Shown here: in pieces, positions 144-3,082 of the stretch
Layout: every line of letters starts with the position of its first letter
Numbering within the stretch: position 1 is the stretch's first letter
NCBI RefSeq assembly: GCF_003014555.1
Contig: NZ_PYGE01000003.1
Location: forward strand, 1 to 64,000
Length of the DNA stretch: 64,000 nt
Origin: Haloactinopolyspora alba
GTDB taxonomy: Bacteria; Actinomycetota; Actinomycetes; Jiangellales; Jiangellaceae
Direction: 5' to 3'
Notes under the pieces: generated by a model
Database searches by the model: none
Told to the model about the DNA's origin: nothing
What the model saw: only the letters and a program-made list of their open reading frames with translations
Made by a program: the position numbers and the translations under genes

Positions 144-1223
144 TCAGCGCATGACGCGGCCGCGGAGGACGATCCGGGTCGGCTCCAGCAGCGTCCGGGG
201 GTCCACGCGCGGGTCGGCGGCGTAGACGCACAGGTCGGCCGCGGCGCCCTCGGTCAGGGTCCCGGTGCCGCCCAGCAGGTAGGCACGCGCCCGCCACGAC
301 GCGGCGGCGACGGCCTCGGCGGCCGGGATGCCTGCGGCCACGAACTCCAGCACCTCTCGGCCCAGCATGCCGTGCGCCAGCACGCCTCCGGCGTCCGTGC
401 CGGCGAACACCGGCACACCCGCGTCGAACGCGTTGCGCACGTTGTCGTACCGGCGCTCGTGCAACGCCCGCATGTGCTGCGCGTACGCGGGAAACTTGGC
501 CATGCCCTGGTCGGCGTACATCGGGAAGTTCGCGATGTTCACCAGCGTGGGAACCATGGAGACGCCGCGTTCGGCCATCCCGGCGATCAGGTCGTCGGAC
601 AGTCCGGTGCCGTGCTCGATGCCGTCGATGCCGGCACCCAGCAGGTCCGGCAGGGCCTCCTCGCCGAACACGTGCGCGGTCACCCGGGCACCGAGCTCGT
701 GGGCGCGTGTGATGGCCGCGTCCAGGGCCTCGCGCGGCCAGCACGGCCCCAGGTCGCCACGTTCGCGATCGATCCAGTCGCCGACCAGCTTGACCCAGCC
801 GTCGCCGCGCTTGGCCTCCTGCTCGACGTAGGCGACGAGCTCGTCCGGCTCGATCTCCCAGCCGTAGTTGCGGATGTAGCGGCGGGTCCTGGCGATGTGC
901 CGGCCGGCGCGGACGATACGCGGCAGGTCGTCGCGGTCGTCGACCCAGCGGGTGTCGGCCGCCGAACCGGCGTCACGCAACAGCAGGACGCCCGCGGCGC
1001 GGTCGGCCAGCGCCTGCTGCTCGGCCTCGTCGTCGGGCACCGCGCCGTTGGCGTCCAGGCCGACGTGACAGTGCAGGTCGACCAGCCCGGGCAGGACCCA
1101 GCCGGTGCCGACGGTGGTCGCGCCGGGCACCGGCTCGTACGTGACGTGGCCGTCGCGGATCCACAGGTCACGGTGTTCTTCATCCGGCAGGACGACCCCG
1201 CGGACGTGGATCGGCTCGTTCAC
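144..1223 (-). CDS. Metal-dependent amidohydrolase (imidazolonepropionase-like)
   Basis: A 359-residue TIM-barrel hydrolase of the amidohydrolase superfamily, which uses one or two metal ions to cleave C-N bonds. Visible metal-site residues are the H51-C-H53 pair after the LVDL strand, K145 in WVKLVG, H184 in VTAHVFG, H204 in GIEHG and D277 in GTDAGG. A short beta-sandwich built from both ends surrounds the barrel. The start is a GTG with only a weak AGAGGT upstream. The substrate cannot be told from sequence; imidazolonepropionase-like and prolidase-like members share this layout. No signal peptide is seen, so it is cytoplasmic. It lies downstream of ffh on the same strand, separated by the six-box repeat array, and is probably a separate transcription unit. 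Confidence 0.88.
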   Translation of the reverse strand: MNEPIHVRGVVLPDEEHRDLWIRDGHVTYEPVPGATTVGTGWVLPGLVDLHCHVGLDANGAVPDDEAEQQALADRAAGVLLLRDAGSAADTRWVDDRDDLPRIVRAGRHIARTRRYIRNYGWEIEPDELVAYVEQEAKRGDGWVKLVGDWIDRERGDLGPCWPREALDAAITRAHELGARVTAHVFGEEALPDLLGAGIDGIEHGTGLSDDLIAGMAERGVSMVPTLVNIANFPMYADQGMAKFPAYAQHMRALHERRYDNVRNAFDAGVPVFAGTDAGGVLAHGMLGREVLEFVAAGIPAAEAVAAASWRARAYLLGGTGTLTEGAAADLCVYAADPRVDPRTLLEPTRIVLRGRVMR

Positions 1224-1293: not shown

Positions 1294-1458
1294 GATCAGG
1301 TGACGAACCGTCGCCCAATCCCGGCTCTTGGTCACCTGATCGTTCGGTAGCCACGTCGTGAGACGCGATCAGGTGACAAACGGCGCTCCATGGGCGCAGT
1401 TTCGTCACCTGATCCATCCGCGAAAGACGATCAGGTGACAAACCGGCGATCAGGTGAC
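1294..1458. repeat. Six-box GATCAGGTGAC array downstream of ffh
   Basis: Six exact copies of the 11-mer GATCAGGTGAC begin at 1294(+), 1331(-), 1367(+), 1404(-), 1429(+) and 1448(+). Start-to-start spacings are 37, 36, 37, 25 and 19. Neighbouring opposed copies form hairpins; the 1367/1404 and 1404/1429 pairs extend beyond the box with an AAAC/GTTT step. The array fills most of the gap between ffh and the amidohydrolase start and ends 16 bases from the ffh stop codon. A near-identical layout follows ftsY. Function is unknown: tandem 3' hairpins, a protein-binding array or a dispersed repeat are all possible. Confidence 0.9.
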
Positions 1459-1474
1459 GCACCGGCACTGGCGA

Positions 1475-3082
1475 TCAGCGCTTCTTCAGGAACTCGGCGA
1501 CGTCGTCGGGTAGCTCGAAGTCGCCACCGCCGGACTGGTCGCCGCCGAAGGCGGACGGTAGCTGCCCCTGCTGTGGCTCCTGGTTGCGCTTGTCCTCGGC
1601 GGCCGCGAGCTGCGCCGCGCGCTTGGCGGGGTTGCCCGACCGGGCGCCGCGCTTGCCCTTCTTGCTCTGCTTCGGCTGCTTGCCCTTGCTCTTCTTGCCG
1701 CCCGGAGCGGGCAGGCCGCCGGCGCCGGGAGCGCCGGGCATGCCGCCGCCGCCCGGCATTCCCGGCATGCCGCCGCCCTTCGCGGCCTGGCTCATCATGT
1801 CGCGTGCCATGAAGAACCGCTCGACCAGCTGGTTGATGTCGCTGACCTGGGTGCCCGACCCCTTGGCGATGCGCGCCCGCCGAGACCCGTTGATGATCTT
1901 CGGGTTCTCGCGCTCCGCCGGCGTCATCGAGTGGATGATGGCCTGGACGCGGTCGAGCTCACGCTCGTCGAACGAGTCCAGCGCCTCGCGCATCTGGCCC
2001 GCACCCGGGAGCATGCCGAGCAGGCTCTTGAGCGAGCCCATCTTCTTCACCGCCTGCATCTGCTGCAGGAAGTCGTCAAAGGTGAAGTCCTTGCCGCCCT
2101 TGCCCTGGAGCTTGCGGGCCATCTCTTCGGCCTGCGAGGCGTCGAACGCCTTCTCGGCCTGCTCGATCAGGGTGAGCATGTCGCCAAGGTCGAGGATGCG
2201 CGAAGCCATGCGTTCCGGGTGGAACACGTCGAAGTCGCTGAGCTTCTCGCCCGCGGAGGCGAACATCACCGGCCGCCCGGTGACCGACGCGACCGACAGC
2301 GCGGCGCCGCCCCGCGCGTCGCCGTCGAGCTTGGTCAGCACGACGCCGTCGAAGCCCACGCCCTCGACGAACGCGTTGGCGGTGCTGACGGCGTCCTGGC
2401 CGATCATCGCGTCGACGACGAACAGCGTCTCGTCCGGCGACACCGCGTCGCGGATGTCGGCGGCCTGGCGCATCATCTCCTCGTCGACGCCCAGCCGGCC
2501 GGCGGTGTCGACGATGACGACGTCGTGCAGCTGCTTCTTCGCCTGCTCGACACCGCTGCGCGCGACCCCCACCGGGTCGCCGACGCCGTTGCCCGGCTCC
2601 GGCGCCCACACCGGCACGCCGGCGCGTTCGCCGACGACCTGCAGCTGGGTGACGGCGTTGGGGCGCTGCAGGTCGGAGGCGACCAGCAGCGGCTGCTTGC
2701 CCTGGTCCTTCAGCCAGAGGGCGAGTTTGCCCGCGAGCGTCGTCTTACCGGCGCCCTGCAGCCCGGCGAGCATGATGACCGTCGGCGGCTGCTTCGCGAA
2801 CCGCAGCCGGCGCGTCTCGCCACCGAGGATCTGCACCAGCTCGTCGTTGACGATCTTGATGACCTGCTGGGCCGGGTTCAGGGCCTCGGAGACCTCGGCA
2901 CCGCGAGCACGCTCCTTGACGGCCGCGATGAAGTCCTTGACCACGGGAAGGGCGACGTCGGCCTCGAGCAGCGCGACGCGGATCTCGCGCGCCGTGGCGT
3001 CGATGTCGGCCTCGGACAAGCGCCCCTTGCCGCGGAGGTTCTTGAAGGTCGCCGTGAGGCGATCGGAGAGCGTGGCGAACAC
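1475..3082 (-). CDS. ffh: Signal recognition particle GTPase Ffh
   Basis: A 535-residue SRP54 protein that binds 4.5S RNA and signal peptides and docks with FtsY to deliver nascent membrane proteins. The N domain covers about residues 1-90. The G domain carries the P-loop GLQGAGKTT at 107-115, then DTAGR and TKLDGDARGG. A methionine-rich M domain follows, with glycine/methionine repeats such as GGGMPGMPGG near residue 430. The tail ends in a lysine-rich stretch and an acidic end, longer than in many Ffh proteins but common in actinobacteria. The start is GTG. The usual neighbour rpsP is absent here; an amidohydrolase lies downstream, and ftsY is 41 kb away. The 3' flank carries the six-box array. 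Confidence 0.98.
   Translation of the reverse strand: MFATLSDRLTATFKNLRGKGRLSEADIDATAREIRVALLEADVALPVVKDFIAAVKERARGAEVSEALNPAQQVIKIVNDELVQILGGETRRLRFAKQPPTVIMLAGLQGAGKTTLAGKLALWLKDQGKQPLLVASDLQRPNAVTQLQVVGERAGVPVWAPEPGNGVGDPVGVARSGVEQAKKQLHDVVIVDTAGRLGVDEEMMRQAADIRDAVSPDETLFVVDAMIGQDAVSTANAFVEGVGFDGVVLTKLDGDARGGAALSVASVTGRPVMFASAGEKLSDFDVFHPERMASRILDLGDMLTLIEQAEKAFDASQAEEMARKLQGKGGKDFTFDDFLQQMQAVKKMGSLKSLLGMLPGAGQMREALDSFDERELDRVQAIIHSMTPAERENPKIINGSRRARIAKGSGTQVSDINQLVERFFMARDMMSQAAKGGGMPGMPGGGGMPGAPGAGGLPAPGGKKSKGKQPKQSKKGKRGARSGNPAKRAAQLAAAEDKRNQEPQQGQLPSAFGGDQSGGGDFELPDDVAEFLKKR

Follow-up and report, generated by a model that had tools for sequence, protein, structure and literature searches.

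The six-box array located behind the ffh gene belongs to a dispersed repeat family with about fifty copies in the genome, which is confined to a single family of soil bacteria. This repeat occurs in high copy number, has a fixed architecture and a position at gene ends, displays recent copying as well as insertion polymorphism, and carries boxes that are under strong purifying selection in place. The best overall explanation, and in our judgment a probable one, is a mobile BIME-like element whose boxes would be bound cooperatively by a sequence-specific DNA-binding protein at the ends of genes.

The window, the stretch of 64,000 nucleotides that was analysed, contains two of these arrays, whose components and neighbouring genes are as follows.

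144..1223, minus strand: amidohydrolase gene, downstream of array 1
1294..1458, plus strand: array 1, six exact boxes in the order + - + - + +, behind ffh
1294..1304, plus strand: array 1, box 1
1331..1341, minus strand: array 1, box 2
1342..1366, plus strand: array 1, spacer 2, degenerate copy of the family consensus GTTTCGTGTCCRCATGnTGGAGAT
1367..1377, plus strand: array 1, box 3
1404..1414, minus strand: array 1, box 4
1429..1439, plus strand: array 1, box 5 (tail)
1448..1458, plus strand: array 1, box 6 (tail, 19 bp after box 5)
1475..3082, minus strand: ffh (SRP54), with array 1 at its 3' end
41795..43960, plus strand: MMPL-like transporter gene (labelled by eye), convergent with ftsY
43978..44138, plus strand: array 2, six boxes in the order + - + - + +, between the convergent putative transporter gene and ftsY
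43978..43988, plus strand: array 2, box 1
44015..44025, minus strand: array 2, box 2
44050..44060, plus strand: array 2, box 3
44087..44097, minus strand: array 2, box 4, GATCAGGTGCC, one mismatch
44109..44119, plus strand: array 2, box 5, GATCAGGTGCC, one mismatch, change identical to that in box 4
44128..44138, plus strand: array 2, box 6
44164..45402, minus strand: ftsY, with array 2 at its 3' end

The positions, strands and spacings that a preliminary description had given for both arrays are accurate; the box starts lie 37, 36, 37, 25 and 19 bp apart in array 1 and 37, 35, 37, 22 and 19 bp apart in array 2. All six boxes behind ffh are exact, while boxes 4 and 5 behind ftsY each deviate at one position. 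The spacers were said not to match each other, and most of them indeed do not; the exception is spacer 2, between boxes 2 and 3, for which the family as a whole has a consensus (GTTTCGTGTCCACATGnTGGAGAT; window 1342-1366 and other arrays) that is degenerate in both window arrays. This consensus contains TGTCCACA, a sequence that we take to be close to the actinobacterial DnaA box TTGTCCACA; the R at an A position argues against such an assignment. Array 1 lies 16 bp from the end of ffh, between this gene and the co-directional amidohydrolase gene, and array 2 lies 25 bp from the end of ftsY, between this gene and the convergent, probable MMPL-like transporter gene (a putative name). The window contains 14 matches to the box with at most one mismatch, as compared with a mean of 1.33 and a maximum of four in shuffles, and 11 exact boxes per 64 kb were found when base composition predicts 0.014.

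The genome from which the window stems (Jiangellaceae, 5.5 Mb) carries 258 exact GATCAGGTGAC boxes versus 1.2 expected from base composition, and a reversed-sequence control pattern had no match in it. From this genome we collected 45 arrays that together hold 217 of the 258 exact boxes; the set was gathered region by region, so that a few arrays in other parts of the contigs fall outside of it. Most of the 45 arrays follow the plan + 37 - 35/36 + 37/38 or 48/49 - 25 + 19 +, in either orientation. Distances from a plus to a minus box are 37-38 in 157 cases and fall into a second class of 48-49 in eight, with none at 40-47; those from a minus to a plus box are 25 in 50 cases and 34-36 in 87, with a single value in between. 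Within a class, the box distances vary by only about 1 bp, and between alternative classes they differ by 10-11 bp, which corresponds to one helical turn. The arrays of Phytoactinopolyspora have the identical layout and also the long spacing class. As the arrays share descent, this conservation of spacing is partly inherited. The boxes are 11 bp in length, the spacers that separate them are 24-27 bp and diverged, and nothing is conserved beyond the outer boxes in the arrays of the window's genome.

These arrays are found at the ends of genes. Among the 45 arrays, 22 lie in convergent, 19 in tandem and four in divergent gene junctions; in a comparison of array-bearing with array-free gaps, convergent junctions are enriched (odds ratio 7.6, p = 1e-8) and divergent junctions are depleted (p = 5e-4). 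The 3' end of a gene is adjacent to 41 of the 45 arrays, the nearest stop codon lies at a median distance of 24 bp, and several gene calls terminate on a TGA within a box. The genes were called with a codon model trained on the window's genome, and single cases among these home-made calls may be wrong.

The strongest contrast within the arrays is that between boxes and spacers. In five intact orthologous array pairs from Jiangella species, one of 286 box sites and 107 of 471 spacer sites had changed; approximately 11-18% of the flanking sites differed in four of the five pairs. These loci had been selected through at least one exact box pair, and with an ascertainment correction that drops two boxes per comparison, the numbers are 1/176 for the boxes versus 107/471 for the spacers (p = 3e-15). 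Box order and distance had been proposed to be kept while the remainder drifted, and this notion holds. Recently made copies in J. muralis differ at 2 of 572 box sites and 56 of 969 spacer sites, with spacer 2 conserved nearly as well as the boxes; because a test restricted to singletons was not significant in these copies (p = 0.07), we base the claim of selection on the orthologous arrays. Within 254 canonical boxes of the window's genome, 50 of the 58 mismatches fall on the last two bases, and the core of the box is therefore GATCAGGTG. Arrays with unrelated spacers have this core in common, across genera as well, which points to a trans-acting reader and not to local pairing. Something in the cell probably reads the boxes.

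Each box, with its core GATCAGGTG, would serve as the binding site for one sequence-specific host DNA-binding protein. The boxes are helically phased and alternate in orientation, and molecules of this protein may occupy them cooperatively, so that a nucleoprotein complex would assemble where the gene ends. If the BIMEs of E. coli are taken as a guide, this complex would most likely absorb supercoils or hinder read-through from one gene into its neighbour. The underlying unit can be pictured as a dispersed, non-autonomous mobile repeat, specific to the Jiangellaceae, that settles at the 3' ends of genes and that appears to have travelled at least once inside an element with terminal inverted repeats. 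Among the ideas put forward in the preliminary description, we infer that a shared DNA-binding protein is the best supported. Several relatives, including one genome of the same genus, have no arrays; this speaks against the box-binding model, and any function of the arrays must therefore be dispensable. We would advance only tentatively the further-reaching view that the mobile repeat has been domesticated. In this view, its phased arrays would form a genome-wide set of binding places at gene ends for an uncharacterised actinobacterial DNA-architectural protein, whose sites would be gained or lost between sister species along with the spread or loss of the element.

An action at the RNA level, in which the transcribed arrays form box-box stems that act as bidirectional transcription terminators or stall 3' exonucleases, is unlikely, although several features fit it. 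The boxes are inverted and lie at 3' ends, in many cases in convergent junctions, as would befit such an element, and the transcript of the array folds far more stably than shuffled sequences (z = -5.4), an outcome that the inverted boxes guarantee. The best sign for RNA pairing is that boxes 4 and 5 behind ftsY changed jointly; these two boxes moreover continue into a longer inverted repeat, as expected of an RNA hairpin. However, selection on stems would preserve complementarity within an array and not one sequence across arrays and genera, and the spacing classes are about one turn of DNA apart. Neither window array contains an intrinsic terminator (GC stem, short loop, T-run), an Rfam search with the ffh array yielded no match up to E = 1, and no base-pair covariation was seen within or between the spacers beside the boxes, in tests of limited power with 23-66 sequences each. 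Extended hairpins were also considered and rejected, with spacer pairing no higher than in shuffles.

The repeat is mobile. J. muralis contains a group of near-identical array copies, which shows recent copying; some of these copies reside within a shared element with the inverted ends GGGTGT...ACACCC, and others share the array only. Such terminal inverted repeats are present in this J. muralis subset and absent from the arrays of the window's genome. At an ABC-transporter-like gene junction, an array-bearing insert of about 190 bp is found in J. muralis and in genome G015; at the same junction in G007, G009, G017 and G018 the insert is absent and the two genes almost touch each other. A GTCACG-like sequence flanks the insert on both sides and may, judged from the sequence, represent a target duplication. 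G017 and G018 (loci L359 and L360) are the closest to J. muralis at this locus (95-97% on one flank), yet lack the array there; G017 is almost array-free genome-wide, and the more distant G015 carries the array. We read the absence from G017 and G018 as loss or as replacement by recombination.

The distribution of the family is narrow and uneven. Of the 118 genomes searched, nine contain exact box pairs; these nine include the genome of the window and all come from one family. The named records with box pairs are from Jiangella and Phytoactinopolyspora, in addition to one lone hairpin in Gordonia desulfuricans (L113:1469-1515), whose two arms each carry the exact box and whose loop is unrelated. 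With a looser pattern, 237 pairs were found in one Phytoactinopolyspora genome, and none or one in the same-genus genome and in several Jiangella. In the 237-pair genome the box is mostly GATCAGATGCAC, and the arrays are arranged in inverted pairs with their tails outward, bounding short composites. Collectively, Jiangella, Phytoactinopolyspora and the genus of the window share this dispersed repeat family, in numbers that range from zero to more than 200 box pairs per genome. Two box patterns searched in IMG/VR for a viral origin gave no match, and we found no description of the box family in the open-access literature.

These copy-number differences, the J. muralis burst, the Phytoactinopolyspora composites bounded by inverted paired arrays and the insertion polymorphism would all be expected of a purely selfish element, whose boxes would be recognised by the enzyme that mobilises it and would play no role for the host. 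We nevertheless hold this reading to be improbable: the boxes are conserved at fixed orthologous loci where the spacers have diverged by 23%, so that mobility alone is insufficient, and no gene for such an enzyme was seen to accompany the arrays. The Y1/RAYT transposase (PF01797) is missing from all 21 genomes searched, with control genomes positive, and an origin from a RAYT/REP system was therefore dropped. A DUF559-like gene (labelled by eye; no Pfam or NCBIfam match) lies beside pcrA between two inverted arrays in the window's genome (L147:4836-6295) and in the Phytoactinopolyspora genome G008 (L287:3130-4595), in opposite directions, as if inverted between the arrays. As a candidate mobilising nuclease it was rejected, since J. 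anatolica also has it close to pcrA but with just a single array, and it is therefore a chromosomal neighbour.

The suggestion of an SRP-specific 3' element that coordinates ffh and ftsY, which bear the same array (Phytoactinopolyspora G008 has a variant array behind ftsY, the only one at the ftsY loci of relatives), is practically untenable: dozens of equal arrays stand at unrelated genes of the window's genome, a finding that the preliminary description itself had named as speaking against such a role; the array is absent from ffh in all relatives examined, the same-genus genome included (ten relatives from the family); and none lies behind ftsY in the Jiangella examined or in the same-genus genome. 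The 88 proteins encoded next to arrays fall into 166 Pfam families, none of them present in more than three proteins, and SRP54 occurs twice, in ffh and ftsY themselves, which are best explained as two ordinary insertion sites. The null explanation, a dispersed repeat that landed twice, was thus right and yet incomplete, given the strong purifying selection that acts on the boxes in place. Near ftsY of Phytoactinopolyspora G006 (L216:1058-1108), a single near-perfect hairpin that begins with GATCAGATGACCGGCAC is present and no array.

For the REP sequences, an extragenic location with a bias for 3' ends and convergent genes, alternating orientation, mosaic modules, copy-number differences and repeat-supplied stop codons have been described (PMC3733652, PMC2817692). 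The arrays resemble REPs and BIMEs in being extragenic and mostly 3' of genes (41/45 beside a gene 3' end), in the regular spacing and alternating orientation of their units, in their mosaic modules and large copy-number differences, and in boxes that sometimes supply the stop codon of the flanking gene. In contrast to the conserved stem-loops of 20-40 bp that constitute REPs, they consist of frozen 11-bp boxes and diverged 24-27 bp spacers; no GTAG/CGTC tag is present in the consensus beside the boxes, where conservation concerns the boxes and partly spacer 2, and none of the genomes of the family that were searched contains a Y1/RAYT gene. Actinobacteria are missing from the phyla listed in the GTAG/CGTC survey. 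Thus, the arrays would work like a BIME and are not filed as one, because neither the tagged stem-loop unit nor the Y1 transposase was found. They are short, non-coding and polymorphic for insertion, as are MITEs and other non-autonomous elements with terminal inverted repeats, and both the J. muralis subset with its inverted ends and the Phytoactinopolyspora composites may add to this likeness; unlike MITEs, the arrays are mostly solo, and the sequence outside of the boxes is unconserved. Multi-site transposon ends of the Tn7 and Mu type contain several oriented protein-binding boxes at fixed spacing. The arrays share this arrangement with their several oriented, putatively protein-binding boxes and, in Phytoactinopolyspora, occur as inverted pairs; they differ in that there is usually one array, that no transposase was found alongside, and that boxes at old loci have stayed conserved where they are.

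The usual yardstick for dispersed bacterial repeats is their copy number only. In the present family, a locus that carries the element in one species can be set against its empty counterpart in another, and boxes can be set against spacers, which opens the old question of whether such repeats do anything for the host to a direct test; the frozen box also represents a ready-made bait for the putative binding protein. A word of caution concerns dispersed families in general: where two of their copies lie next to partner genes, they can mimic coordinated regulation.

A second repeat is present in the window. Just downstream of the amidohydrolase stop codon, positions 86-123 form a perfect 38-bp palindrome, GATCACGTTCCGCATGGAATTCCATGCGGAACGTGATC, whose core GCATGGAATTCCATGC is found in 33 copies in the window's genome and in none of 59 relatives. 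We regard this palindrome as a second, species-specific dispersed repeat; its other copies run on into ...CATGCGTCACCACCC.
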